Below are positions 23,946 through 37,802 of a stretch of 64,000 nucleotides of DNA, piece after piece; the first letter of the stretch is position 1; each line of letters opens with the position of its first letter. A program made the translations under genes and the position numbers. The notes under the pieces were generated by a model. That model did no database searches, was not told the DNA's origin, and worked only from the letters and a program-made list of their open reading frames with translations. This stretch comes from Armatimonas rosea (GTDB lineage: Bacteria; Armatimonadota; Armatimonadia; Armatimonadales; Armatimonadaceae), in NCBI RefSeq assembly GCF_014202505.1, contig NZ_JACHGW010000002.1, positions 62,001-126,000 on the forward strand. Reading direction: 5' to 3'.

Positions 23946-24974
23946 ATGGAATACCGATTTTTAGGGGCCTCGGGCCTCAAGGTCCCGGTCCTCAGCTTTG
24001 GCACCGGCACGTTCGGCGGCAGCGGCGCGTTCTTTGAGGCATGGGGCGCGAGCGATGTGGCGGAGGCGACCCGCCTGGTGGATATCTGCCTCGATGCCGG
24101 GCTGACGATGTTCGACTCCGCGGATGTCTACTCCGGGGGCAAGGCGGAGGAGATTCTGGGTCAAGCGATCAAAGGCCGCCGCGATAAGGTGCTGATCTCG
24201 ACCAAGGGCGGCTTTCGCACCGGCCCCGGCCCCAACGAGACCGGCTCGTCGCGCTTTCACCTCACGGAGACGATCCACAACAGCCTGCGGCGCCTGGGCA
24301 CGGACTACATCGATCTCTTCCAGCTCCATAGCTTCGATGCCTTCACGCCCGTGGAGGAGGTGCTCCAGACCCTCGACGATTTTGTACGCGCGGGCAAGAT
24401 TCGCTATGTCGGCTGCTCGAACTTCTCGGGCTGGCACCTGATGAAGTCGCTGGCCGCGGCGGAGAAGTACGGCCTGCCGCGTTATGTGGCGCACCAGGCC
24501 TACTATTCCCTCATTGGCCGCGACTACGAGTGGGAGCTGATGCCCCTGGGCCTCGACCAGAAAGTCGGGGCCGTGGTCTGGAGCCCGCTGGGCTGGGGCC
24601 GCCTGACCGGGAAGATTCGCCGCGGCCAGCCGCTCCCGGAGAGCAGCCGCCTCCAGTCCAAAGTGGTGGTCGACAATGGCCCGCCCGTGGACGATGAGTA
24701 CCTCTATGGCGTGGTGGATGTCCTCGATCAGCTCGCCGAGGAGACCGGCAAGACCGTCCCGCAGCTCGCGCTCAACTGGCTCCTGCAACGCCCGACGGTC
24801 GCGACTCTGGTGGTTGGGGCGCGCAACGAGGAGCAGCTCAAGCAGAACCTCGGGGCGGTCGGCTGGAACCTGACTGCGGAGCAAGTGGCGCGCCTGGATG
24901 CGGCGAGCAACAAGACCAAGACCTATCCCTACTGGCACCAGGACGGGTTTGATCGGAACCCGTTCCCGACGTAA
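23946..24974 (+). CDS. Aldo/keto reductase
   Basis: A 342-residue NADPH-dependent oxidoreductase of the AKR superfamily, TIM-barrel fold. Visible family motifs are LDAGLTMFDSADVYSGG (catalytic Asp and Tyr), the Lys in LISTKGGF, the DYIDLFQLHSFD strand with the catalytic His, and the C-terminal cofactor-binding region VVGARNEEQLKQNLGA. The sequence resembles the YajO/Tas-type general AKRs. A GAGAGG ribosome site just before the ATG fixes the start. The substrate is unknown. Confidence 0.9.
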   Translation: MEYRFLGASGLKVPVLSFGTGTFGGSGAFFEAWGASDVAEATRLVDICLDAGLTMFDSADVYSGGKAEEILGQAIKGRRDKVLISTKGGFRTGPGPNETGSSRFHLTETIHNSLRRLGTDYIDLFQLHSFDAFTPVEEVLQTLDDFVRAGKIRYVGCSNFSGWHLMKSLAAAEKYGLPRYVAHQAYYSLIGRDYEWELMPLGLDQKVGAVVWSPLGWGRLTGKIRRGQPLPESSRLQSKVVVDNGPPVDDEYLYGVVDVLDQLAEETGKTVPQLALNWLLQRPTVATLVVGARNEEQLKQNLGAVGWNLTAEQVARLDAASNKTKTYPYWHQDGFDRNPFPT

Positions 24975-25029
24975 CCTCTCCCCCTAGCCCCCTCTCCCGG
25001 TCGTTCGTGCCTCACTGGGAAAGGGGGAA
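24975..25029. repeat. GC-rich palindromic repeat fragment
   Basis: CCTCTCCCCCTAGCCCCCTCTCCC is matched imperfectly by GGGAAAGGGGGAA at the other end, 20 bases later. It belongs by composition to the CCCTCCC/GGGAGGG elements at 12695-12842 and 62380-62480. It separates the aldo/keto reductase from the convergent toxin gene. Confidence 0.5.
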
Positions 25030-25425
25030 CTAAGGCTCGTCGTTGGACGAATCCGTACCCTTGAGCACATCACTTGCGGCTTGTGTTCGGGTTCCGATCA
25101 CGCGCAAGACTAGCACGCGGCCTGTCTCTTCTCCCTGCGTGGGATCGTAGAGTGCAAAGAAGATATGGCAGGCCACCGAGGTGGCTGGCTTCTTGTCCGG
25201 GCCGTTGTAGAGCCTCACACGCACCTCAGCACGCCGCCGCTCGCTCTCTTCAATGTTCCGTGGAAAGGAGCGTGGGCCGGGGAAATCTGCCAGCGAATCA
25301 ATCGCCACGCTCAGACCCTCGTCCCATCTGCCGACATACTCAGGCCCACGCAGACGGGCAACACGAGAGGCGAGTTGGTCAATATCAATCTCCGCTCTCT
25401 CTGTCCTTAAAACCACCCAGGTCAT
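25030..25425 (-). CDS. ParE/RelE-type toxin
   Basis: A 131-residue protein with the ParE/RelE plasmid-stabilisation fold: an N-terminal strand (MTWVVLRTERAEIDIDQL) and two helices, a central Arg-rich strand (RAEVRVRLYNG), and HIFFALYDP...RVLVLRVIGTRTQA at the end. RelE toxins cut mRNA on the ribosome and ParE toxins poison gyrase; I cannot tell which applies. It overlaps the upstream antitoxin gene by four bases, the usual arrangement. Confidence 0.75.
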   Translation of the reverse strand: MTWVVLRTERAEIDIDQLASRVARLRGPEYVGRWDEGLSVAIDSLADFPGPRSFPRNIEESERRRAEVRVRLYNGPDKKPATSVACHIFFALYDPTQGEETGRVLVLRVIGTRTQAASDVLKGTDSSNDEP

Positions 25426-25736
25426 GCGGCAGCTTTCTCTATATCTTTGGTGGCAGAAGGTGCTTCATATCCGAACTCTCGCTTGAGTAGCTCGGCAGTA
25501 CGCTTTCGTCTCGCTTCGGAGTCCCAGGGGGCAACCTTGATCGTGCCTGCTTCGATCCCCTCGCACATGGCTTGCAGCTCGTCGGCAAACTCCTGGGTAA
25601 TCACTGGTTCGGGGATAGCGTTCTCTTCCACCTCATCGAGTAGCTCATCGAGGGCCTCCAGGGGAGAGATTCCTCGCGACGCGGCAAAGCGAATCAGTCG
25701 GGCTTTTGTCTCTGGTTTCTCAATCGTCAGTGTCAT
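25422..25736 (-). CDS. Antitoxin of the ParE-type pair
   Basis: A 104-residue acidic protein encoded directly before the toxin with a 4-base overlap. The N terminus (TLTIEKPETKARLIRFAASRG) has the strand-helix pattern of ribbon-helix-helix or VapB-like antitoxins, which bind their own promoter. The C-terminal part is helical and charged and probably wraps the toxin. The ATG at 25736 is chosen because the short extension to 25775 is not antitoxin-like. It probably autoregulates the operon. Confidence 0.7.
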   Translation of the reverse strand: MTLTIEKPETKARLIRFAASRGISPLEALDELLDEVEENAIPEPVITQEFADELQAMCEGIEAGTIKVAPWDSEARRKRTAELLKREFGYEAPSATKDIEKAAA

Positions 25737-26095
25737 GATATTTCCATCATATCTACAACGAAACAGCGGTGCCATAGAGCCATCTCCCTGCCGCCCATCT
25801 CCCTGCCACCCATCTCCCTGCCGCTGAGACGGCTTCCCTCTTCCCCGGATCGCTCGTCCCTCGCTAGGAAGAGGGACGAGCCTACCACGATAGGGGAGCC
25901 TCTCTTCCCGACGAGCTTGCGAGTACCACCCAGAGGGTACCGGGGGAAGAGAGGTGGGTGAGTTCTGCGAACCCGGAGAGATGCCCCGAAACCTACAGCC
26001 TGCCGAGCAAGTCGGGGCGGGCGCGGAGGGCGACCTTGGTGATGCGGTGGAGGGCCTGCATCCAGTCCCGCAGGGCCTTCGTGTATGGGCAGAGT
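25737..26095. repeat. Repeat-rich gap with gene remnant
   Basis: This gap holds three tandem copies of the 15-mer CCATCTCCCTGCCGC (25780-25824, the middle one with one change). Two hairpins follow: CCCTCTTCC/GGAAGAGGG (25836-25844 with 25867-25875) and CCTCTCTTCCC/GGGAAGAGAGG (25899-25909 with 25944-25954). The end of a broken gene (25993-26094) completes it. I see no complete gene. Confidence 0.7.
25993..26094 (-). pseudogene. C-terminal remnant of a lost gene
   Basis: Reading leftward, 33 sense codons and a TAG encode an amphipathic helical tail, including KALRDWMQALHRITK and RARPDLLGRL. Host-like high-GC codons and the absence of any start suggest this is the end of a protein whose 5' part is gone. 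It begins one base after the stop codon of the SRA-HNH gene and is in a different frame. I cannot name the family. Confidence 0.4.
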
Positions 26096-26992
26096 TTATG
26101 TTTCCGTATCTGGGGAACTATACTCTTCTGGCCGCAAGTAACACTGCCGGTGGTATTGTAAGAAATCCGCTCGGATGTGATGCCCTAGCACTGTTCTCAG
26201 ACGTTGTTGTGTTCCTGTTACTGTCAGGTCATCGTCGATCGTGATCGCTCCTGTGTCAAACAAGAGATGACAGTTTGCGCACAGACATAAGATATTGGTT
26301 ATTATGTCTGGGCCATGATGGGGGCGGCCGAGAGGACGAATATGTGCTGCTTCTGCATAGGGGCCTCCTGGAGTTTCAAGACGGACTCCGCATACTTGGC
26401 ACGTGTAGTTATGCATCTGCTTAACTCGATTCGCCAGAGCTGTTGTCCGTACAATGCGTGAGACTATTGCTGCTACGCGCTTGGTTGGACCGTACTCTTC
26501 TTTTGGCTCGCGAATCTGAAACGCGCCTTTTAAGCCAACCTTACTCAGACGGAAACGCCAGATCAGAAATCCTGACTTACCCCTATCCTGCCAATACCTC
26601 TCGACGCGGTAGAGACCAGCATAGACGTAACCGGAGGAGGGAGATAGCTCATGGCGATGACTGGCTCCACGGACAACTCGGATGGGCACTCCCTCCAATA
26701 GATTTTTTACTAAGGCTGCATTACCCCGAATAAGCTGTTGATCGAAGACTTGCTTCTTTGTTTGGGGATCGTTTCCCCCCTCACCCGTGTAGATCAGCTC
26801 ATTGCCAAGGTCCTCATCGTCCTCGTAGCCACCCGAGAGAACGATTGATTCTGCGGGCTCACTCGCACTACCACAAATACCATTCATCGGGGGACGATGA
26901 ACTCCTGCTTGGCTGAGAGCTGCACGATTTTCAAACCAGTGCCCCTCAGGATAACCCGGTATTTCACCATACTGGCGTTTACTGAGGGACAT
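26096..26992 (-). CDS. SRA (YDG)-HNH modification-dependent endonuclease
   Basis: A 298-residue protein. Residues 1-160 are an SRA/YDG domain, which flips and reads 5-methyl- or 5-hydroxymethylcytosine: GGYEDDEDLGNELIYTGEGG, PIRVVRGA, then SGYVYAGLYRVERYW. Residues 200-270 are an HNH nuclease with zinc ligands (CQVC and LCANCH) and the AHIRPLGRPHHGPD core. Known SRA-HNH enzymes cut modified foreign DNA (type IV-like restriction). The gene is clearly lower in GC than its neighbours, starts 3 bases after the MFS stop, and is followed immediately by a gene remnant, which points to acquisition. Confidence 0.88.
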   Translation of the reverse strand: MSLSKRQYGEIPGYPEGHWFENRAALSQAGVHRPPMNGICGSASEPAESIVLSGGYEDDEDLGNELIYTGEGGNDPQTKKQVFDQQLIRGNAALVKNLLEGVPIRVVRGASHRHELSPSSGYVYAGLYRVERYWQDRGKSGFLIWRFRLSKVGLKGAFQIREPKEEYGPTKRVAAIVSRIVRTTALANRVKQMHNYTCQVCGVRLETPGGPYAEAAHIRPLGRPHHGPDIITNILCLCANCHLLFDTGAITIDDDLTVTGTQQRLRTVLGHHIRADFLQYHRQCYLRPEEYSSPDTET

Positions 26993-26995
26993 GGT

Positions 26996-28339
26996 TTACT
27001 CGGGCAGGGGCTTCCCTTTGGTCTCCGGGGCGAAGGCGAGCCCGACAAAGCCGAAGATATAGATGCTGGCGACGATGGCGGCGGCGATTCGGAAGCCGTA
27101 GGCGGGGTCGGTGGGGCTGTTGAAGGCCTTGGCGAGCCCTCCCAGCGCGAACGGTGCGGCGGCGGCCAGCAGGCGGGCGCAGTTGTAGCAGAACCCGATC
27201 CCCGTGGCGCGGAGCCGGGTGGGGTAGAGCTCGGGGAAGTAGACCGCAAACGCCGAGAAGGGGGCCAGGGCGCAGAAGCCCAGCACGAACGAGAGGACGT
27301 AGGCGGTGTTGAGGTCGCGGACGCCCCAGAAGGCAAGCTGGATCGAGCCGTAGGCCAGGAGCAGGAAGAGCGCCAGCGCAGGCTTGCGGCCCACCCGCTC
27401 ACTCAGGGCGGCGTAGCCAAACATCCCCAGAAACGCCCCGACATTCTGGAAGATAAACGCGATACTCACCCACTGCCCGAGCTGCTTCTTGCCCGCGACA
27501 GCGTCCATCGCCGCGACATTGGGCCCCAGCACCGTGCGGATCAGGTCGGGGAGGAAGAAGCCCACGCCCCAGAGCCCACCCACACCGGCGAGAGCGATCA
27601 GGGTTCCGGCGATCGTGTTCTTGCGAAGAGTCGGATCGCTGAAGAGTGAGGCGATATTGCCGATCTCTCCGGTAGTTGCCGCCTTCTCCTTGGCCTCGTG
27701 CCACGCCTCGGGCTCCTTCACCGACGAGCGAATCCAGAGCACCATCAGGGCTGGGGCGGCTCCCACGAAGTAGACCACGCGCCAGTCGGCACCGGCCAGG
27801 AGGTTCACCACGGCCGCGCCCATGTTCCCGATTGCGGAGAGGGCTTGCAGGGTTCCCAGGGCCATCGGGCGGGAGCGGTTGGGCCAGACCTCCGCGACCA
27901 GCGCGGCACCGGCGGCAAACTCCCCGCCCACCCCGAGGGCGGTGATGAAGCGACAGATAAAGTACTGCGGCAGGTTCTGCACCAGCCCATTGAGCCCGGT
28001 GAAGACCGCGTAGATCAGGATCGTCAGCATCATCGTCCGGGTACGCCCCAGCTTGTCGCCGATCATCCCAAAGATAAAGCCCCCGAAGGCCCAGCCCACC
28101 AGAAAGGTCGCGGTCAGCTGCGCCCCCACCAGCTTGGCGGCATCGTCCAGCTCTTTCCCTGCGAGGCCGGTCAGCTCCAGGAGCGCCTTGACCGAGGGAG
28201 CCCGGACCATATTGAAGAGATTCTGGTCCATCGCATCAAAGAGCCAGCCCAGTGCCGCGATAATCAGCACCATCCAGGAGTACTTCGGGATTCCCTGGTA
28301 CCACTTCAGGTTCTTGTCGTCGTGAGAGGCAACACTCAT
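26996..28339 (-). CDS. MFS transporter
   Basis: A 447-residue, 12-helix major facilitator. The loop between helices 2 and 3 has the family signature GMIGDKLGRTRTMML, and RFITALGVGGEFAAGAALVAE fits sugar/aromatic-acid:H+ symporters. A long central cytoplasmic loop (WHEAKEKAATTGEIGNI) separates the halves. Its start overlaps the DUF6807 gene by four bases, so it is the third gene of the Gfo/Idh-DUF6807-MFS operon and probably imports that pathway's substrate. Confidence 0.88.
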   Translation of the reverse strand: MSVASHDDKNLKWYQGIPKYSWMVLIIAALGWLFDAMDQNLFNMVRAPSVKALLELTGLAGKELDDAAKLVGAQLTATFLVGWAFGGFIFGMIGDKLGRTRTMMLTILIYAVFTGLNGLVQNLPQYFICRFITALGVGGEFAAGAALVAEVWPNRSRPMALGTLQALSAIGNMGAAVVNLLAGADWRVVYFVGAAPALMVLWIRSSVKEPEAWHEAKEKAATTGEIGNIASLFSDPTLRKNTIAGTLIALAGVGGLWGVGFFLPDLIRTVLGPNVAAMDAVAGKKQLGQWVSIAFIFQNVGAFLGMFGYAALSERVGRKPALALFLLLAYGSIQLAFWGVRDLNTAYVLSFVLGFCALAPFSAFAVYFPELYPTRLRATGIGFCYNCARLLAAAAPFALGGLAKAFNSPTDPAYGFRIAAAIVASIYIFGFVGLAFAPETKGKPLPE

Positions 28340-29577
28340 TTGGCGAGCTCGACTTTCGGGGGAGTGGCCCAGGCATTGAAGCTCTCGGCAATCTTAGCGG
28401 CGCGGGTATCGCCCTTGTGGAAGAGAACCCGGTAGGCAAAGGTCACGGACTTGCCCTCGGGCGTGATGAGCTGCCCGGCGTGGCGGTCGGTCTTCTTAGT
28501 GGTGTCGAAGTCATGGAGGCCGAAGGGGTTGGCGGCGTAGAGGCCGTAGGTGCGCGAGTGCCAGGTGGTCGGGTAGCGCGGGTTGCTCGGGGAGTCGAAG
28601 ATCGCGATCCCGAAGGTCTCCCCGCCTGCCTCGACTGGGCCCCAGTAGTCGTGCCACGGCGATGGCTTCCCCCAGACCGCGGCGTTCTTCACGCCCTCGG
28701 CGCTCTCCAGGGTGCCCTTGCCCTCTTTCTCCGCCTTCATGATCTCGGGGACGCGTAGCGCAAAAGTCCCTTCCTTGGTATCGCCCCAAGTGAGCGGGCC
28801 ACCGACTGCGGTGACCGTCACCGAGAAGTCCAGCACGATACTCTCCCCGACCGGCGTCACCACGATCTCGCGGGTGTCGCGGGCGATGGTCTTGCCCTGC
28901 TCGGTGATCCAGTCGGTCTTGGTGCCGAGCCTGCCGGAGACCGCGCCGCTCTCCAGGGCGGAGTAGCCGGTATTGACCGTCTTGCCGATCGGATGCCCCG
29001 CCTTGGCGACCTCGGTCCAGAAATCGACATCGTTCATCTCGCCGTGGGTGAACCAGAGCCCGCGGTGGTGCGGGTGGTCTTTCTCCTCGTGGCCCACTTC
29101 TTCCAGCGGCCAGCGACGCGTGAAGTGCTTGCCGCCAAAGGCCTGGATGGGGTAGAGGTAGGGCTTGTTCGGGCCGGTCGTGGTGTCGTAGCGGGTGAAG
29201 AGCTGCCCCCCGATCCGGATCTCCGCGTTCTTGCCCGCCTCCTTCACCTCGACAGTCGCTGCCTTGCCGGGCGTGAGCACAAAGAGCTTGGACTCGCCTT
29301 TCTTGAGGGCAGGGGCCACAAAGACCAGGGTGGCCTTGTCGGCACCGGCGGCCCGGATCTGGCAGACCAGCGGGGTCGCGCCCTTGGGGAGCGTGTGTTT
29401 TTTCTTGAGCTCGGCCTGGGAGAGGGTCAGGGAGACCGGAGCGGCGGCGCTATCGGCTTTCTCAGCGGTGACACGGACGGGGATGCTCTGCGCATCGGCA
29501 GCCCCTGCGGCGAGGGCGACACCGGCAACGGCGGCTCCCGCGACAGCACTGCGGCGGAGAAATTCAGGTTTCGGCAT
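28336..29577 (-). CDS. DUF6807 protein (first copy), exported
   Basis: A 413-residue protein with a signal peptide (FLRRSAVAGAAVAGVALAAGAADA; RR suggests Tat). The DUF6807 (PmoA-like) domain is marked by PYLYPIQAFGGKHFTRRWP, DHPHHRGLWFTHGEMN and, near the end, FDSPSNPRYPTTWHSRTYGLYAANPFG. The His-rich DHPHHRG motif may bind metal. In Planctomycetes and relatives the family sits beside Gfo/Idh oxidoreductases and sugar genes, as here, but no activity is established. It overlaps the MFS gene by 4 bases. Confidence 0.82.
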   Translation of the reverse strand: MPKPEFLRRSAVAGAAVAGVALAAGAADAQSIPVRVTAEKADSAAAPVSLTLSQAELKKKHTLPKGATPLVCQIRAAGADKATLVFVAPALKKGESKLFVLTPGKAATVEVKEAGKNAEIRIGGQLFTRYDTTTGPNKPYLYPIQAFGGKHFTRRWPLEEVGHEEKDHPHHRGLWFTHGEMNDVDFWTEVAKAGHPIGKTVNTGYSALESGAVSGRLGTKTDWITEQGKTIARDTREIVVTPVGESIVLDFSVTVTAVGGPLTWGDTKEGTFALRVPEIMKAEKEGKGTLESAEGVKNAAVWGKPSPWHDYWGPVEAGGETFGIAIFDSPSNPRYPTTWHSRTYGLYAANPFGLHDFDTTKKTDRHAGQLITPEGKSVTFAYRVLFHKGDTRAAKIAESFNAWATPPKVELAK

Positions 29578-29628
29578 GAACCGGTTTTCGACAGGGGAGG
29601 AAGCGATTCCTCCCCTGTCGGTGACAAA

Positions 29629-31068
29629 CTACGCCTTGGGGAGCGTGAAGCCCTTGCGGTACTCGCGGGTGAGCAGGGGAAGCGCGGCCTTGTCCTTGAA
29701 CTGCTCCTTGGCCGCATCAATCTCCAGCAGGCGCCCGAGCTTGAGCTTGGTGTTGGTCAGAGCCACCCCGTTTTTCTCCAGGTGCTCCTTCATGCGGCCA
29801 AACGCCTCGGTGCCATTGCGGCTCTTGCTCCACTCGCGCTCGGCATCGCTGAAGCTGGTCTCCCGCCCGAGCTGGTAGGAGTTGTTGCCCAGGTGACAGA
29901 GCGCGCTGGAGAGGTGCCCCTCCAGAACCGGCGCGGCCAGGTCGGACTGCTGGCGGCTCTTGACGGCGCGGATAAAGGCGGCAAAGTGATCCCCGCCGCC
30001 GTTAAAGGTCGCCAGCGGCTGGCCGTCGTTGGTGAAGGCCGCCGCCTTGCCGTAGCTCGACGTAAACACGACATAGCCGCTCTCGCCGTAGATAATATCG
30101 CCGATATCGGCGCCCTTGAGCTTCTCGGTGGGCAGGCCGCGCACCTCGAAGACCAGCTGTGAGTCCGCGTAGTCGTAGACCGAGACCACGGTGTTGGGGG
30201 TCGTGCCCTGATCGACATAGCCAAAGCGCCCGCCCAGGGTCATCACCGAGCTGGGGAGCTGGTTCTTGCCCAGGGCCCAGCGCGCGATATCCATCTGGTG
30301 GATTCCCTGGTTGCCCAGATCGCCGGCGCCGTAGTCGAAGTTCCAGTGCCAGTTGTAGTGGAAGCGGTTCTTGTTGAAGGGGCGCTTGGGAGCGGCCCCC
30401 AGCCAGATATCGTAGTCCACGCCCGCGGGAACCTCGCTATCGGGGAAGATTCCGATACTGTTGCGGGGCTTGTAGCACAGCCCCCGCGCCACACTGACCT
30501 TGCCGATCTTGCCGTCGTGGATGAACTTGATCCCCTGCTGGACCGCCTTGGCCGAGCGGCTCTGGGTACCGACCTGGCAGATACGGCCCGTGCGCTGCTG
30601 CACCTGGACAATCCGGCGGCCCTCACTGACATTGTGGGAGCAGGGCTTCTCGACATAGACATCTTTTCCCGCCTCCATCGCCCAGGTCGCCGCCAGCGCG
30701 TGCCAGTGGATGGGCAGGGCGCACGAGACCGCGTCGATCTCCTTGTCCTCAAAGAGCTTGCGCAGGTCCTGGTAGACCTTGGGCTTCTTGCCGGTCTTCT
30801 TCTCTATCGCCGCCGCCGCCTTCTCCCCAACCCCGGAGTCGACATCGCAGATCGCCACCACCTCGGCATCCGGCAGCCCGAGATAGCCGTCGATATGCGC
30901 CTTGCCGCGCCCATTGACCCCGATCACCGCGACGCGCACCTTGTCCGCCGCGCCGTAGCGCCGCCGGGGGCGCGCCGGTGTGGGCTCTGCCGCAAACGCG
31001 CCCGCTGCTGTGAGCGATGCGATCGCGGTGGCAAAGAATGCCTCGTCTAGAAAACCTCGTCGTGTCAT
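29629..31068 (-). CDS. Gfo/Idh/MocA oxidoreductase, exported type
   Basis: A 479-residue protein with a Tat signal (TRRGFLDEAFFATAIASLTAAG). The NAD-binding fold is VRVAVIGVNGRGKAHIDGYL, followed by VVAICDVDSG and the catalytic EKP motif (VYVEKPCSHN). The C-terminal alpha/beta domain includes FHYNWHWNFDYGAGDLGNQGIHQMDIARW, typical of the large exported Gfo/Idh clade of Planctomycetes. These enzymes oxidise or isomerise sugars and inositols. It is first in the operon with DUF6807 and MFS. AGGGAG upstream supports the ATG. Confidence 0.9.
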   Translation of the reverse strand: MTRRGFLDEAFFATAIASLTAAGAFAAEPTPARPRRRYGAADKVRVAVIGVNGRGKAHIDGYLGLPDAEVVAICDVDSGVGEKAAAAIEKKTGKKPKVYQDLRKLFEDKEIDAVSCALPIHWHALAATWAMEAGKDVYVEKPCSHNVSEGRRIVQVQQRTGRICQVGTQSRSAKAVQQGIKFIHDGKIGKVSVARGLCYKPRNSIGIFPDSEVPAGVDYDIWLGAAPKRPFNKNRFHYNWHWNFDYGAGDLGNQGIHQMDIARWALGKNQLPSSVMTLGGRFGYVDQGTTPNTVVSVYDYADSQLVFEVRGLPTEKLKGADIGDIIYGESGYVVFTSSYGKAAAFTNDGQPLATFNGGGDHFAAFIRAVKSRQQSDLAAPVLEGHLSSALCHLGNNSYQLGRETSFSDAEREWSKSRNGTEAFGRMKEHLEKNGVALTNTKLKLGRLLEIDAAKEQFKDKAALPLLTREYRKGFTLPKA

Positions 31069-31133
31069 TGCTTTTTTCTCCCTAAGAAAATCTACCCAAA
31101 CCAGTTCGGTTTTATTCTCTTCTTTTCCTCCTC

Positions 31134-31162
31134 TTGCAAGCCGCCCGAAGATACGATATAGT
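31134..31162 (+). promoter_or_regulatory. Promoter of tRNA-Gln
   Basis: TTGCAA (31134-31139), a 17-base spacer and TATAGT (31157-31162) precede the tRNA by 17 bases. TTGCAA is its own complement, so it could also serve as -35 for the divergent Gfo/Idh gene, with AATAAA 17 bases away on the other side. Confidence 0.55.
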
Positions 31163-31179
31163 AGCTGGCGCCGAAATGA

Positions 31180-31250
31180 TCCCGGATCGTTCAACGGCAG
31201 GACGACAGGTTCTGGCCCTGTTAATCGAGGTTCGAATCCTTGTCCGGGAA
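31180..31250 (+). tRNA. tRNA-Gln (CUG anticodon)
   Basis: The 7-bp acceptor stem pairs TCCCGGA (31180-31186) with TCCGGGA (31243-31249), discriminator A. The anticodon arm is ACAGG-TTCTGGC-CCTGT, giving CUG. The T-loop is GTTCGAATC. The 3' CCA is not encoded. Confidence 0.95.
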
Positions 31251-31254
31251 TCTA

Positions 31255-31284
31255 AACCCCGCTACAATCGTAGCGGGGTTTTTT
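31255..31284 (+). terminator. Terminator after tRNA-Gln
   Basis: AACCCCGCTAC-aatc-GTAGCGGGGTT followed by a T-run forms an 11-bp stem and ends the tRNA transcript. Confidence 0.92.
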
Positions 31285-31330
31285 AATTGCTCCCCGCCCG
31301 TTGGAGGGGCGGGGCTGGAGTCTATATTTC

Positions 31331-32497
31331 ATGATCGAGAGCTACCGCGCCGCGTACAACGCCGCCTTCACACCGAGCCGCTACGAGGCGTTCCTGCGCC
31401 GCCTGACCGAGCTCTGCGGGGAGCCCGTGCCCTTTCGCTGCGCGGAGACCCCGTGCTTCTTTGCTGCCGAGACCCTGGCGAGCATGGTGGACGTGGGCCA
31501 GGCGCTGATCGGGCAGCTGATTGCGAACGAGAGCTACTTAGCCCGTGCTGCGGCGGCCATCCCCGAGGCGTTTCGTGTCCCCAACACCGACTCTGCCCCG
31601 CTCTTTGTGCAGGCCGACTTCGGGCTCGACCAGAACCTTGCGCCCAAGCTGGTCGAGATCCAGGGCTTTCCCTCGCTCTATGCCTTCCAACCAACCCTCG
31701 CCGAGGCCTACCGTGATGCCTTTGAGATCGCCCCCCGCCTGAGCCCGTTTTTCGACAGCGGCACGCGAGAGAGCTACGATGCGGCCCTCTCACAGGTGCT
31801 CTGCAACGGCCACGATCCCCGTGAGGTCTTCCTGCTGGAGCTCGCGCCCCATGCCCAGAAAACACGCCCAGACTTTTTCCTCACCGAGAAGCGCTACGGT
31901 GTCCGAACCCTGGATGTGCAGAGCGTGGTCAAGCGTGGCAAGCAGCTCTTCGCCCCCGATGGCACCCCGATCAAGCGCCTCTACAACCGGGTGATTGTCG
32001 ATGAGGTGGTGCGAAAAAGTGTTCCGCTGCCCTTCGACTTCCGCGACGAGCTTGAGGTGGAGTGGGCGGGGCACCCGAACTGGTATTTTTTAGTGAGCAA
32101 GTTCTCTCTGCCGTTTCTGAATCATCCGAGTGTCCCAAAGACGCAGTTTCTCTCGGATGTCACCGCGCTCCCGGAGGATCTAGAGAACTATGTCCTCAAG
32201 CCGCTCTTCTCGTTTGCGGGGCTAGGGGTGAGTGTCGGGCCGACCAAGGAAGAGCTCGCGGCGGTGGCGGATCCGCCCCAGTGGATTCTGCAGGAGCGTG
32301 TGAACTTTATCCCGACCATCGAGACCCCCGAGGGGCCAACCAAGGTCGAGGTGCGGATCATGTTTGTCCGGGTGGGGGGCACCTACCAGGCCATGACCTC
32401 GCTCCTGCGGCTAGGGCGCGGCAAGATGCTCGGGGTGGATCACAACCGCGACTCCACCTGGATCGGGGCCAGCGCCGCATTTATTGTGGAGAATTAA
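31331..32497 (+). CDS. ATP-grasp-like protein
   Basis: A 388-residue soluble protein. The C-terminal third reads like an ATP-grasp domain: YVLKPLFSFAGLGVSVGP (Lys and Gly-rich loop), WILQERVN, then VEVRIMFVRVGG. The N-terminal half has LVQADFGLDQNLAPKLVEIQGFPSLY, as seen in uncharacterised ATP-grasp proteins related to glutathione-synthetase folds, which join a carboxylate to an amine. Substrate unknown. It lies after the tRNA-Gln terminator and has no co-directional partner. Confidence 0.6.
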   Translation: MIESYRAAYNAAFTPSRYEAFLRRLTELCGEPVPFRCAETPCFFAAETLASMVDVGQALIGQLIANESYLARAAAAIPEAFRVPNTDSAPLFVQADFGLDQNLAPKLVEIQGFPSLYAFQPTLAEAYRDAFEIAPRLSPFFDSGTRESYDAALSQVLCNGHDPREVFLLELAPHAQKTRPDFFLTEKRYGVRTLDVQSVVKRGKQLFAPDGTPIKRLYNRVIVDEVVRKSVPLPFDFRDELEVEWAGHPNWYFLVSKFSLPFLNHPSVPKTQFLSDVTALPEDLENYVLKPLFSFAGLGVSVGPTKEELAAVADPPQWILQERVNFIPTIETPEGPTKVEVRIMFVRVGGTYQAMTSLLRLGRGKMLGVDHNRDSTWIGASAAFIVEN

Positions 32498-32522
32498 CGG
32501 GACGTATCTCTCTAGAGTGGCA

Positions 32523-33374
32523 CTACCATGTCCCCGAGCGGACAGTAATTGTCCCCAGGTCGAGGAACTTCCCTTCGTCCACACGGAGATTTTTTATGTG
32601 GATAGGATTGCCTGGCCCCGTGTGGTGGTAGAGAAGAGTATAGTCCGTCTTGGGCACTACCCAGGCAATAAAGCGACCGTCGGGGTAGGTGTGGAGCTTG
32701 GAGAAGAGCTGTGATCCCACATACAGCTCGGGCTGGGCATCGGTAAGGGGAGTGCCCTGCTCGTCCACAAGCTGCCCTGTGACACTATGCACCGGATGCT
32801 CCGAGAGCGCGACCACTTGCTGGCCCTCGCTCACTGTGATCTGCCCCGCTGCAAACAGGCGCTTCGTCGGGCCGAGGCTCCCACTGCCTGCAACGGGGCC
32901 AAGAGTGCCGAATATGGGCTCCTGCTCAAACGAGGCATAGAAGTTCGTGATCCCTTGTGGGGGTAGCAGCAGGTCACCGCTCTGATTGCTTGTCCCCACC
33001 GGCATATCGCTGACCCTCTGAGCAGGAGCCGCACCGGTTCGTGGATTGCTCTTCTCATAGCGCGACAAGCTGACGGACACGCCAGAGACAGGCTTGCCTG
33101 CGTCATCGACAAAGTGGAGCGTAATCGGCCCGGTCTGCACAGGAGTGCGCTGCGCGACCCGCGCTGTCTGGATAGACTGGACAACGAGCAGGCCTCCGCC
33201 GCCGCCAAAGGCGAGCGCGAGTGCGGGAATCAGTACGGTTTTCATGGTGACGTGACCTTTCTTTCGGGAGTATAGGGAGGGAAGCTGCGCGAGGATGTGC
33301 CCGTGGAGCTCGGAGGGAACCTCACACTCGGGGAGCGTCTTAGCCAGACGGCGGAGCTTGGGCTCAAAGGACAT
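32523..33374 (-). CDS. Anti-sigma-like membrane protein with carboxypeptidase-regulatory-like domains
   Basis: A 283-residue protein that starts 11 bases inside the end of the ECF sigma gene. Residues 1-43 are a short cytoplasmic region (PKLRRLAKTLPECEVPSELHGHILAQLP), as in minimal sigma-binding regions. A transmembrane helix follows (about 46-64, ALALAFGGGGGLLVV). Outside are two beta-sandwich modules of the carboxypeptidase-regulatory-like kind: ITLHFVDDAGKPVSGVSVSLSRY, and later VTGQLVDEQGTPLTDAQPELYVG. No zinc-finger motif is present. The likely job is holding the sigma factor until an external signal is sensed. Confidence 0.65.
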   Translation of the reverse strand: MSFEPKLRRLAKTLPECEVPSELHGHILAQLPSLYSRKKGHVTMKTVLIPALALAFGGGGGLLVVQSIQTARVAQRTPVQTGPITLHFVDDAGKPVSGVSVSLSRYEKSNPRTGAAPAQRVSDMPVGTSNQSGDLLLPPQGITNFYASFEQEPIFGTLGPVAGSGSLGPTKRLFAAGQITVSEGQQVVALSEHPVHSVTGQLVDEQGTPLTDAQPELYVGSQLFSKLHTYPDGRFIAWVVPKTDYTLLYHHTGPGNPIHIKNLRVDEGKFLDLGTITVRSGTW

Positions 33375-33942
33375 GGCGTTTCGTTCCTTTCTGGGGGAGT
33401 CCGTCGATGGATGGGGAGAGCGCATGCTGGAGAAGGACGGTGGCTTGGGCGAGGCGGGACTGGACCGTTCCCAGGGGAATCTCCAGCAGCTCGGCGACCT
33501 CCCGGTAGCGCAGCTCTTGCACCCGCACCAGCACGAAGACCTCACGATAGGGGAGAGGAAGTGCTGAGATTGCGGTATTGAGAGCTTGCTTTGCCTCGTG
33601 CTGGGTGTAGCGGGCTAGAGGGTCGCTGGTCAGATCGGCGGCGAGCTCCTCGTGGGCATCCAGTGTCTCGGTAAAGTGGCTCTTGCGGCGCGCCGCCAAG
33701 TGGTGTTTGACCGCGATCCCACAGAGCCAGGTGGAGAGCGCCCCCGTGCCGCGCCAGTCGGCGAGGCGCTGGTAGGCTGTGAGGAAGGTCTCCTGTGTGA
33801 GGTCCTCGGCAAGAGCGGGACTGCCCGTGAGCCGCAAAAGTAGGTTGTACACCCGGCGCGAGTGGCGCGTCAGAAGCGCACCAAACGCGGCCGTGTCTCC
33901 ATTTTTCGCTCGTCGGACCAGCCAGAGGTCAGGAACTTGCAT
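33364..33942 (-). CDS. ECF RNA polymerase sigma factor
   Basis: A 192-residue group-4 sigma factor. Region 2 is residues 10-80 (FGALLTRHSRRVYNLLLRL, AEDLTQETFLTAYQRL, LSTWLCGIAVKH). Region 4 is about 115-170 (LNTAISALPLPYREVFVLVRVQELRYREVAELLEIPLGTVQSRL). It directs RNA polymerase to stress or envelope promoters. Its stop overlaps the start of the membrane protein downstream by 11 bases, the classic sigma/anti-sigma arrangement. Confidence 0.93.
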   Translation of the reverse strand: MQVPDLWLVRRAKNGDTAAFGALLTRHSRRVYNLLLRLTGSPALAEDLTQETFLTAYQRLADWRGTGALSTWLCGIAVKHHLAARRKSHFTETLDAHEELAADLTSDPLARYTQHEAKQALNTAISALPLPYREVFVLVRVQELRYREVAELLEIPLGTVQSRLAQATVLLQHALSPSIDGLPQKGTKRHVL

Positions 33943-34005
33943 CGCCTTTTTCGTCCTTCGCAGTTAAGTGTCGAAAAAAACGGCGTTTGTTCGGATTCTT
34001 GGTGC

Positions 34006-35379
34006 TTAATTTTCGTGGGGGCCAAGCAGGCTATAGACAAGCATCTGTCCTTTGCCCTTGACTTCGATCTCACGTGGGGGGCTAAACATAAACTCAGTGC
34101 CTAACAACATTTGGGTTGCCTCTGTGACCTGGATCTGACCCGGGATACCATGAGACTCCATGCGGCTGGCCGTATTGACCGTATCACCCCAGAGATCGTA
34201 GATAAACTTCTTTGTCCCGATCACCCCCGCGATCACTGGTCCCGAGTGCAGGCCAATGCGCAGGCACAGCGGCTCACCATTCTCGCGCTTAAAACCAGTG
34301 ATGACCGTGCGTAGCTCCAGAGCCATTCGTGCGGCGGATTGGGCGTGGTGGGTGTCGGGCTTGGGGACTCCGGCCACGGCCATATAGGCATCGCCAATCG
34401 TCTTGATCTTCTCCAACCCATGCTTCTCGGCGAGGGCATCAAAGGTGGAGAAGATCGCATTGAGTAGGGTGACAAGTTCCTCCGATGAGAGCGTTGCCGC
34501 GAGCTGTGTGAAGTCCACGATATCGGCAAAGAGCACCGTAGCGGACTCAAAACTATCGGCAATGGTGGTCGGCTCGTCCTTCAGGCGGTGTGCGACCATC
34601 TCTGGCAGAACATTGGCAAGGAGCCGCTCGGACTTGGCACGCTCAATATCCAACAGATAGTTCGCGAGAAACGCTTCGCGTGCGAGGCGCTCTTGGACAA
34701 GGGCAACGGAATAGGCGGCAACGATGGAGGTGCAGCTCACCTGGATCGTTACCCCAATAAACTCTGTGGAAAAACCGACTTGGAGAGGCTTGATGACGCA
34801 CCAGACCGCGATTGCTGCCATTGCAAACATTGCAGAGACTGCCCAACGGAACTGAAGGCGGAAGGCAGCGAGAAACACCATTCCGATGGGGATCATTCGT
34901 ATGAGAAAGTAAGTGTTGCTTCCGTTTAATTCATTTCTAAAAATAAGCAATAAATCGTCATTATTAAATAAGATCTCGTATTGTTTTAAAAAAAGAAAGC
35001 TCCTTAAATTTCTTGCGTAAGATATGGATAGGCATAAGAAAAGAAATAGTAATATTAATAATAATGTAGATAAGGGCTGAAAATATTTTTCGAATGATTT
35101 TAAAAATGTGATTCTGCGAAAAAGCAAAAGTACTGGTATGGATGAAATAGTCCCTGCTAATCCTTTAGCCGTGTTGTTGACAGCATTTGGATCTTTGCTT
35201 GAAAAATAGGCATGTGTCATCTCTCTAAGGACGATGAATGCTATCAGGACGACGAGAGCGAGCAAGATCTTTCTCAGCGAAGGGAGAAACTTTTGGTAGT
35301 AGTCCTGCTGAAAAACAGCCTCAATCTCGTCGGGGAAGCGGAGGCGGCGCAGGTAGCGTGCACGGTCGGCGGCTTGCAT
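34006..35379 (-). CDS. Class III adenylate/guanylate cyclase with membrane sensor
   Basis: A 457-residue protein. Residues 40-225 hold about six transmembrane segments. A short linker helix follows (RAKSERLLANVLPEMVAHRL), then the catalytic domain: VLFADIVDFT (metal-binding Asp), KTIGDAYMAV, RIGLHSGPVIAGVIG and YDLWGDTVNTASRMES (substrate and transition-state residues). It makes cAMP or cGMP. The DNA for residues 51-158 is extremely AT-rich, while the catalytic domain has normal composition, suggesting the sensor was acquired separately. The ATG at 35379 is preferred to longer frames. Confidence 0.92.
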   Translation of the reverse strand: MQAADRARYLRRLRFPDEIEAVFQQDYYQKFLPSLRKILLALVVLIAFIVLREMTHAYFSSKDPNAVNNTAKGLAGTISSIPVLLLFRRITFLKSFEKYFQPLSTLLLILLFLFLCLSISYARNLRSFLFLKQYEILFNNDDLLLIFRNELNGSNTYFLIRMIPIGMVFLAAFRLQFRWAVSAMFAMAAIAVWCVIKPLQVGFSTEFIGVTIQVSCTSIVAAYSVALVQERLAREAFLANYLLDIERAKSERLLANVLPEMVAHRLKDEPTTIADSFESATVLFADIVDFTQLAATLSSEELVTLLNAIFSTFDALAEKHGLEKIKTIGDAYMAVAGVPKPDTHHAQSAARMALELRTVITGFKRENGEPLCLRIGLHSGPVIAGVIGTKKFIYDLWGDTVNTASRMESHGIPGQIQVTEATQMLLGTEFMFSPPREIEVKGKGQMLVYSLLGPHEN

Positions 35380-35416
35380 AAGATAGTGTTCTCTGGGCGA
35401 ATTATACCAGAGCGGC

Positions 35417-36034
35417 TTAGAGAGCGATGACCCGCTGGGCCAGCGCCGCCTCACGGCTGTCGTTGGTGGCGATCAGGGTGAGACCCCCGCGTGTTTTTTG
35501 CTGGGCGACTAGGCTCTCGACCACGGCGACTCCTTTTTCATCGAGCGCGAGGCCGGCCTCGTCGAGGAGCAAGATGGGGGGCTCAAAGAGCGCCGCGAGT
35601 GCCAGCTTCACGCGCTGGCGCAGGCCCGATGAGTACTGCCCAATGGGGTCGTCCTCGCGCCCCCCCAGCCCGACCCACTCCAGGGTGGCGGCGATTCCCT
35701 CGGGGGAGGCACCGCGCACATCGCAGAAGAAGCGCAGGTTCTCGCGTGCCGTGAGCTCGGGGTAGAGCGTGAGGTCCGGCGAGACATAGCCGCAGAGCTG
35801 TCGCCGCCGCTCGGGCTCGCTCTCATCGACCGTGCCCACGGTGAGCGCGATCTTTCCCTTACTCGCCCGCAAGAGCCCCGCGACGAGCTTGACCACGGTG
35901 CTCTTGCCGCTCCCATTGGCCCCGGTGATCGCGACCACTTCGCCGCCCTCCGCCACCAGCGCAAAGTCCCGCAAGACACGCCGCATGCCGTAGCGCTTCT
36001 CGATTCCTGTCAGCTCCAGCCGGATCGTTTCCAC
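35417..36034 (-). CDS. ABC transporter ATP-binding protein
   Basis: A 205-residue single ATPase domain: Walker A GANGSGKST (about residues 38-46), Q-loop region CGYVSPDLTLYP, the signature YSSGLRQRVKLA, and Walker B ILLLDEAGLALDEKG. Size and LTARENLRFF resemble CcmA of the cytochrome c heme exporter, but the ABC2 membrane partner is not adjacent, so a generic exporter ATPase is equally possible. It is flanked by the cyclase (37 bases) and the ankyrin gene (10 bases) on the same strand. Confidence 0.85.
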   Translation of the reverse strand: METIRLELTGIEKRYGMRRVLRDFALVAEGGEVVAITGANGSGKSTVVKLVAGLLRASKGKIALTVGTVDESEPERRRQLCGYVSPDLTLYPELTARENLRFFCDVRGASPEGIAATLEWVGLGGREDDPIGQYSSGLRQRVKLALAALFEPPILLLDEAGLALDEKGVAVVESLVAQQKTRGGLTLIATNDSREAALAQRVIAL

Positions 36035-36044
36035 GGAGTTGATT

Positions 36045-37802
36045 CTACCGCTTCAGCCCCGCTTTTTGGAGCCGCTCCACCACGGCAGGGAGCTTGAAGT
36101 AGCGGGCGTAGGCCAGCGCCGTGCCCCCTTTCCAGTCCTGCTCGGGGGGGAGGGTCACGCTCAGGTCGGGTTTATGCGCAAGGAGCTGCTCCAAAAAAAC
36201 AAGAGCCTCCGGGGCGGTCGGGGCGACTATCGGTTGTTGCTTGTGCATCTCCGAGAGGCTGTAGCGGGTCAGGCCCAGGTAATGGATCAGGCTAAAGAGA
36301 GGCGTTTTTTCATCGCGCCCCCGCACATTGACATCGGCCCCTCGTTTGAGCAGGTCCTCCGCAAGCCCCAGCTCCCCCATGTCGAGAGCCGTGCACAGCG
36401 CCTTGCCCTGGGACTCAGCGTCCTTGGTTTGGGCCATCAGCAGGGTGTAGATCTGCTCTTGCTGCTCCTGGATAACGTCTTTGGAACGGCGCTTTGTTGG
36501 CGACTCTCCTCGGCGGCGCAGGGGCATCTGTCCCTTGCTTTGAACACAGCGCTCCAGCGCATCGCCGACCTTGGCCCCGTGCTCCAGCAGGAGCTTAACC
36601 GCCGCGGCCTCGTTGGCTTGAACGGCCTTTGTCAGTGCTGTCTCTGGGCTGTCCGCACGGCCTGCGAGGGCATCGAGGTCGGCCTTGTGCGCGATGAGGA
36701 GCTGCATCACGGCGACAAAGCCATGTGCCGCGGCGGTATGCAGCGGGGTAGATCCCCGTGTGCCCGGCTCGGGAGGGAACCCCTCAAAGTGCGGGGGCTG
36801 TGTCGCCGCGCTCGGATCGGCGCCACGCTCCAGCAAGAGCTGGACTGCCTCGGCACTCCCCGACTGCGCCGCCAGAAAGAGCAGGGGCGAGCCGTTCTTA
36901 TCACGGCTATTGGGGGAGGTGCCCGAGTCGAGGTGTTTTTTGAGGACCGTGGGAGCTCCCGAGACAGCGGCCTCGAACGCGGTCATGTTGGGGTGAGTGG
37001 CACGCAGAAGCCGCACGACCTCCTCACTCCCCGCACTCTGGGCCAGCTCTAGCGCCGTGAACGTTCGGCTCGTTCGAGAGCGGCTGCTTTGGTTGACGAG
37101 CGCGGGATCGGCGCCATGTTCGAGGAGGAGCGCGACTGTCTTGGGATGGTTCATGAGCGCAGCTTGCATCAAGGGGGTGGTCCCATTGGCTGGGCTGATA
37201 CTATTGGGGTTGGCTCCGCTCTCCAATAAAAACTGAATCAGAGGAACCTCCGGGCCTTCTTTATCCCGTAGGGTCGGCATCATCGCAATCTGTAGCGGGG
37301 TCCCCCCGAGCTGCGAGGGGGCATTGATATCGGCTCCGCGTGCAAGAACCTCTTTGACGAGGTCTAGATCGCCCAGCCGGGTGGCGATATGCAGGGCACA
37401 GATTCCTTCGGCACTGGTCGCATGGATATCGAGGTGGTGTGCCAGAAACTCACGGAAGATCGCGATGGCCTGTGGCTTGTCCGACTCATCGGATTGTTGG
37501 GGCTGTACCAGCAGGATAAAGGGGCTTGGGGCCTGCTGCTGTTCCGGGGGGACTCCCTCCATTTTCCAGGAGAGCGTCGCATTGGCACTGGCTCCGTTTG
37601 CAAAGGCGTGCTGTACCCCGACGACATCGCTTTGGGAGACGGCAGTGTAGAGAGCGTGATTGGCGGGGGTGTCCGGGGAAATGAGCACTTGAGTCTCGAA
37701 GGCACCGGAGAGCCGCGAGGGACGAGAGCGCGAGCGCCGGGCAAGGAGGAGTGCTGTCAGCCCAATGGGAAGAATCATGGCAAGAAACCAGCGTCGCTTC
37801 AT
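36045..37802 (-). CDS. Ankyrin-repeat protein, membrane-anchored or exported
   Basis: A 585-residue protein. One N-terminal hydrophobic segment (WFLAMILPIGLTALLLA, residues 4-20) follows MKRR, so it is exported or anchored. From about residue 60 to the end there are 10 or more ankyrin repeats, visible as G-ADPN/G-TPL patterns: LARGADINAPSQLGGTPLQIA, LESGANPNSISPANGTTPLMQAAL, LLEHGADPALVN, LLERGADPSAA, LKRGADVNVRGRDEKTPLFSL. Such solenoids mediate protein contacts. It is the first gene of the run ankyrin-ABC ATPase-cyclase. Confidence 0.88.
   Translation of the reverse strand: MKRRWFLAMILPIGLTALLLARRSRSRPSRLSGAFETQVLISPDTPANHALYTAVSQSDVVGVQHAFANGASANATLSWKMEGVPPEQQQAPSPFILLVQPQQSDESDKPQAIAIFREFLAHHLDIHATSAEGICALHIATRLGDLDLVKEVLARGADINAPSQLGGTPLQIAMMPTLRDKEGPEVPLIQFLLESGANPNSISPANGTTPLMQAALMNHPKTVALLLEHGADPALVNQSSRSRTSRTFTALELAQSAGSEEVVRLLRATHPNMTAFEAAVSGAPTVLKKHLDSGTSPNSRDKNGSPLLFLAAQSGSAEAVQLLLERGADPSAATQPPHFEGFPPEPGTRGSTPLHTAAAHGFVAVMQLLIAHKADLDALAGRADSPETALTKAVQANEAAAVKLLLEHGAKVGDALERCVQSKGQMPLRRRGESPTKRRSKDVIQEQQEQIYTLLMAQTKDAESQGKALCTALDMGELGLAEDLLKRGADVNVRGRDEKTPLFSLIHYLGLTRYSLSEMHKQQPIVAPTAPEALVFLEQLLAHKPDLSVTLPPEQDWKGGTALAYARYFKLPAVVERLQKAGLKR

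Follow-up and report, generated by a model that had tools for sequence, protein, structure and literature searches.

The gene at positions 26096–26992 (minus strand) of the 64,000-nucleotide stretch of Armatimonas rosea DNA analysed here (the window) encodes, in one open reading frame (ORF), a protein of 298 aa in which an SRA domain and an HNH domain are joined. The explanation that best accounts for the locus as a whole, and that we consider very likely, is a TagI-type, modification-dependent (type IV) restriction enzyme that was probably acquired and that resides in a variable slot. Judged by its sequence, the protein is a clear member of the SRA-HNH (TagI) family, an enzyme type that is already known and ordinary, and the local interest is limited to the exact slot of the nuclease gene and its neighbours.

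We infer the mechanism and the cleavage specificity by carrying them over from TagI. The SRA domain would flip 5-methyl- or 5-hydroxymethyl-cytosine (5mC or 5hmC) from the helix into a pocket formed by Tyr56, Asp59 and Tyr68, and the C-terminal HNH domain (His217, Asn233, His242 and Asp246, plus a four-cysteine zinc site) would cut nearby, as a dimer and without NTP. Incoming 5mC or 5hmC DNA would be cut and glucosylated DNA spared, and the host, having no 5mC of its own, would tolerate the enzyme. The gene sits in a variable slot between two conserved genes, for DUF6807 and an aldo/keto reductase, which it shares with a ParE-type toxin–antitoxin (TA) pair and with what is left, at its tail end, of a PQLLE gene; its expression would probably depend on read-through from the operon of an MFS transporter gene. 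A role in defence, and the order of the events that built the slot, are presumed in the same conditional sense. Genomes are labelled below with G numbers (G000, the window's own genome; G001, that of the sister species) and contigs with C numbers.

Domain architecture and conserved residues

Pfam placed SAD_SRA in the N-terminal part (E = 2.8e-48; residues 8–151, positions 26540–26971) and HNH_2 in the C-terminal part (E = 1.2e-11; residues 198–253, positions 26234–26401) of one chain, both on the minus strand and with window coordinates derived from protein positions. The best solved relative is TagI (PDB 6ghs), matched over query residues 5–283 of 298 (E = 3e-72) with 131 of 279 aligned residues identical (47%); the TagI residues kept are Tyr55, Asp58, Tyr67, Cys210, Cys213, His229, Asp241, Asn245, Cys250, His254, Asp258 and His288. 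In the window protein, the flipped-base pocket (Tyr56, Asp59, Tyr68), the HNH catalytic residues (His217, Asn233, His242, Asp246) and the structural zinc ligands (Cys198, Cys201, Cys238, Cys241) are all present, and the pocket is invariant in 77 of 77 rows of an alignment composed of the window and 76 TagI-like loci; these come from the 80 best of 179 such loci, four having been left out for stops or short matches. The initial annotation had proposed a modification-dependent restriction gene, and the two domains, the homology to TagI and the pocket and catalytic residues bear this out at the level of sequence. The domains, like the composition and the gene remnant described below, exceed chance. 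PADLOC returned weak matches only for the nuclease (best 4.9e-6, HNH).

At the thumb position, 56 of the 77 rows have Gln; the window protein has Met, as do three other Armatimonadota rows (L121, L123, L125). By eye the residue is Gln in G177, which holds the fifth Armatimonadota SRA-HNH sequence and stands outside the 77-row alignment; a Met thumb is common to four of the five such sequences seen. The position of TagI Asn259, a residue reported to be important for TagI activity (PMC6212794), is Thr247 in the window and is variable, with Asn in 16 of the 77 rows. An SRA-HNH relative in G086 (L117:3820-4851) has, by eye, Arg at the second HNH histidine and Glu at the metal-binding Asp, and may for this reason be inactive; the same replacements were seen in two and one of the 77 rows, respectively.

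Genomic context of the nuclease gene

On the minus strand, the nuclease gene follows the MFS transporter gene (26996–28339), whose start is overlapped by the DUF6807 gene (28336–29577, minus strand), a conserved flank of the variable segment. The MFS stop codon TAA is followed by ACC and then by the nuclease ATG, a gap of 3 nt, and the nuclease TAA is separated by one base from a 33-codon open stretch that lacks a start codon and ends in TAG (25994–26094, minus strand). Both junctions agree with the initial annotation, and only the last 28–29 codons of the stretch match anything. Next come a putative antitoxin of 104 aa (25422–25736) and a toxin of 131 aa with a predicted ParE fold (25030–25425), both on the minus strand with a 4-nt overlap at the toxin start, and then the convergent flank gene, encoding an aldo/keto reductase (23946–24974, plus strand) whose protein is 98.5% identical in the sister genome.

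Hairpin-forming intergenic sequences lie at 24975–25029, resembling several places in the sister genome, and at 25798–25993, from the TA pair to the remnant and partly repeated in the window's own and the sister genome. The hairpin-forming stretches 24969–25034, 25778–25923 and 25900–25994 flank the TA pair; parts of the last are found again at 10 other places in the host genome, and sequence similar to the first two occurs at several places in the sister. Farther along the window, a tRNA gene lies at 31180–31250 (plus strand), and an Rfam scan of 24000–37000 returned nothing but one tRNA. The translation of 34006–35454, where a low-GC stretch lies at 34–35 kb (GC 0.53), resembles a membrane-bound adenylate/guanylate cyclase on reading of the sequence.

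The sister genome is arranged differently. Its contig C59 carries the reductase, 23 bp and then an MFS gene 59% identical to that of the window, and the 23-bp interval holds no nuclease, TA pair or remnant, so that the MFS-to-reductase interval measures 2021 bp in the window versus 23 bp in the sister. At the DUF6807 end of this contig, all 33 residues compared agree with the window. A further sister contig, C46, holds DUF6807 together with an MFS gene whose first 344 residues are 97% identical to those of the window's transporter; the contig end cuts it off there. C46 (L085) and C59 (L089) are identical over exactly 104 nucleotides at the end of DUF6807, beyond which each continues into a different MFS gene; because this shared end looks like an assembly fork, the sister population may hold two MFS alleles at this place, or the segment may have been duplicated. 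The sister has two different MFS genes, each preceded by the same 104-nt end of DUF6807, and one of the two ends 23 bp short of the reductase. From this we also raise, tentatively and with more doubt than conviction, the possibility that the stretch from DUF6807 to the reductase is an exchange slot of the genus, in which alternative MFS alleles and small defence modules would be swapped as blocks between fixed flanks.

The remnant is real: by sequence similarity it is the C-terminal end, through the stop, of a PQLLE-family (NF052641) gene. It matches positions 182–207 of the 211 in the NCBIfam profile PQLLE_fam (E = 9.6e-4) with 18.9 bits, well under the whole-protein cut-off of 80, and because only the last profile positions are present we regard it as a fragment and not as a member gene. 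Its best match among intact genes of the sister is 83% over 29 residues (E = 6.5e-12), and the DNA match to the sister is 89% over window positions 25992–26079, beginning 16 nt past the nuclease stop. The sister genes on C126 and C20 encode PQLLE-family proteins (NF052641; E = 1.9e-31 and 5.3e-30). In all, PQLLE matches number five in the sister genome (one with an internal stop) and one intact plus the remnant in the host, and none was found in the 19 other genomes of that search; PQLLE-family genes (NF052641) include L084:11183-11947, L086:2917-3606 and L091:2095-2777. A search of the accessible literature on the PQLLE family found no paper.

The initial annotation had the nuclease replacing the front of a resident gene. 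The lost gene is genuine, as its PQLLE tail attests, but replacement in place is no more than a possibility, no relative having been seen with an intact PQLLE gene at the site. As the sister contig that spans the site has only 23 bp there, the remnant may have arrived with the inserted block or may stem from an older rearrangement. A move of the PQLLE gene from the place that it occupies in the sister was considered and rejected: the counterpart of its neighbour on sister contig C126 lies on host contig C1, where the next ORFs are housekeeping-like and include no PQLLE gene. The only close DNA match in the host genome is the remnant in the window. A fusion of nuclease and PQLLE tail by frameshifting was likewise set aside; the +1 frame, in which the tail lies, is free of stops for about 30 codons upstream, within the nuclease gene, with no sign of use.

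The TA pair that had been noted beside the nuclease is credible, with a toxin of predicted ParE fold behind a small overlapping ORF. The toxin scored 15.5 bits against Pfam ParE (PF05016; cut-off 23) and the antitoxin 16.8 bits against Unstab_antitox (cut-off 23.3), both below the Pfam cut-offs; ParE was matched by two of the four members of the toxin alignment (best E = 2.7e-4). A sequence search with a profile of the four toxins brought up no toxin of solved structure, and neither the toxin nor the antitoxin was assigned to a family by PADLOC or NCBIfam. The best structural model of the toxin, built from an alignment of only four sequences, had a pLDDT of 79 and a pTM of 0.78 (pLDDT 46–67 in the other four models). 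Its 21 best PDB matches are all described as toxin–antitoxin complexes, 14 of them naming ParE or ParDE, although the matches are modest (two at E <= 0.001), and a ParE/RelE fold is credible on the model. A search of 21 genomes found relatives of the toxin in 6. Four loci were examined out of seven other toxin matches: at three the pairing is kept, with a small ORF upstream that reaches or overlaps the start of the toxin gene, the toxin frame being broken by a stop in one of them, and the fourth is ended by the contig end. The putative antitoxins are 27–29% identical.

Expression

In a scan of 24900–27200, which covered the last 200 bp of the MFS gene, there was no promoter-like match before the nuclease gene on its strand, and the sole minus-strand promoter-like match precedes the antitoxin. 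A terminator-like match on the minus strand falls within the nuclease gene, with no excess in the count (2 versus 2.5 in shuffles), and no clear Shine-Dalgarno sequence was seen by eye directly before the nuclease ATG. The 3-nt gap and the lack of a promoter-like match immediately ahead of the nuclease make read-through transcription from the MFS operon plausible; it is the simplest idea, and the nuclease is probably expressed in this way.

The missing promoter-like match and Shine-Dalgarno sequence, together with the low GC3 reported below and the adjoining gene remnant, would also fit an intact gene with little or no expression, carried along in an intergenic slot prone to recombination. We consider this unlikely because the 298 codons have stayed open and the TagI catalytic and pocket residues have been kept while the PQLLE neighbour has decayed to a tail, and because translation could be coupled across the 3 nt that separate the nuclease from the operon gene ahead of it. 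Read-through expression of a working enzyme is the reading that we prefer.

Tight packing was also considered as a habit of the TagI family and rejected. A same-strand upstream gene within 30 nt was found at 12 of 65 TagI-like loci and in 117 of 446 other neighbouring ORF pairs, and thus is no commoner in the family by this rough comparison, in which longest-ORF starts shrink the background gaps and the two sides were counted under slightly different rules. The 65 loci were judged by a rough ORF rule from the best 80 of 179, 14 without a start codon and one without upstream sequence having been left out.

Origin of the nuclease gene

The nuclease gene has a GC content of 0.511 versus 0.639 for the window, which confirms the lower GC than the surroundings reported at the outset. 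Its GC3 is 0.465, whereas eight of the nine other non-TA genes measured lie at 0.81–0.88 and one at 0.705; the toxin (0.636) and the antitoxin (0.571) are low too.

Of 291 sampled genomes of the phylum, 7 carry SAD_SRA; the sister is not among them. Judged from the ORFs, SRA-HNH proteins are encoded in five (G000, G003, G004, G086 and G177), and no HNH part could be seen in the SRA ORFs of the other two, G010 and G261; in G010 (L094:3087-4448), the SRA is followed by a different C-terminal part and stands behind a large ORF that, on reading of the sequence, resembles a restriction-methylation enzyme. The full-length relatives from the same family, in G004 (65%) and G003 (56%), both lie beside unrelated genes, and the nuclease and the transporter share a contig only in the window's genome (21 genomes searched for both). 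Occurrence in the same place in distant relatives would have spoken against the acquisition proposed by the initial annotation; the gene is absent from the sister, and the G003 and G004 copies lie in other contexts. With the odd composition, the absence from the sister and the other neighbours in G003 and G004, the nuclease gene was probably acquired horizontally.

Phage and plasmid origins were tried and rejected. None of three matching phage records, and one of 65 matching plasmid records (Janthinobacterium, 49.7% identity), covers 80% of the protein, so no close phage or plasmid carrier was found. In a tree of 79 rows, the nuclease groups with three other Armatimonadota sequences (support 99/90), which suggests that the gene probably circulated inside the phylum; its donor may have been another member of the phylum, and many relatives may have lost it. 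This grouping of four of the five Armatimonadota SRA-HNH sequences, two of whose holders belong to the window's own family, might instead reflect an ancient gene passed down vertically in the family and lost repeatedly, the composition being atypical for other reasons. We regard such a history as decidedly unlikely because the gene neighbours differ in G003 and G004, the sister site is 23 bp, GC3 is far below that of most neighbours, and the fifth sequence (G177) is placed elsewhere in the tree, albeit on a long and unsure branch. Horizontal acquisition remains the favoured origin.

Target and host DNA methylation

A target other than 5mC or 5hmC, for example phosphorothioate DNA or another base, to which a resemblance of the HNH part to the phosphorothioate-dependent family NF045808 (E = 1.9e-14; 53.5 bits versus a cut-off of 180) and the thumb residue Met in place of the Gln of TagI might point, is highly improbable, no sulfur-binding domain being among the Pfam matches and the cytosine pocket Tyr/Asp/Tyr being found in 77 of 77 aligned members. 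As to modified cytosines, TagI reportedly leaves glucosyl-5hmC uncut (PMC6212794), and in the window protein the segment to which the clash with glucose is attributed reads Thr-Gly-Glu-Gly; on this basis glucosylated T4 DNA is predicted to be spared, and both the cleavage of glucosylated DNA and the restriction of wild-type T4 by the window enzyme are predicted to be negative.

The window's genome (98.2% complete) has no match to the C5-cytosine methyltransferase family (PF00145), and the sister, which is without the nuclease, has two. A host that makes no 5mC is the best explanation of how the nuclease would be tolerated, and the lack of a C5-methyltransferase is a trait that one would expect with such an enzyme, although it does not define the family. 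The TagI host, T. agreste, is likewise reported to be without C5 methylation, and the authors argue that TagI is thereby tolerated (PMC6212794). We caution against extending this to the phylum: PF00145 occurs in one of seven SRA-bearing genomes versus 113 of 284 others, which is not significant (Fisher p = 0.25), and a phylum-wide link between SRA and the lack of a C5-methyltransferase was rejected. G177 has its SRA-HNH gene together with two PF00145 matches. For the window, the prediction is a host without 5mC and an enzyme that would restrict 5hmC but not glucosyl-5hmC phage DNA.

Comparison with known systems

The TA pair resembles ParDE-type modules (PF05016) in its predicted toxin fold and in the small upstream ORF with a 4-nt overlap, but differs from them in a toxin sequence below the Pfam cut-off and in the modest structural matches. 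The nuclease shares with TagI of Thermocrispum agreste the whole architecture, the base pocket, the HNH triad, the metal-binding Asp and the Thr-Gly-x-Gly segment. It differs in having Met36 where TagI has Gln35, Cys where the fourth zinc ligand of TagI is Asp253 (a Cys also reported for ScoA3IV), Thr247 for Asn259 and Glu214 for Gln226, and in coming from a different phylum. With it, the SRA-HNH family gains a clear member in a phylum unnamed in the accessible part of the TagI paper (PMC6212794). ScoA3IV (Sco5333) and TbiR51I, both reported to be toxic to Dcm+ E. coli (PMC6212794), have the same architecture as the window protein, a likeness by description and not by sequence comparison, and ScoA3IV is reported to have, as the window protein does, a CxxC zinc motif (PMC6212794).
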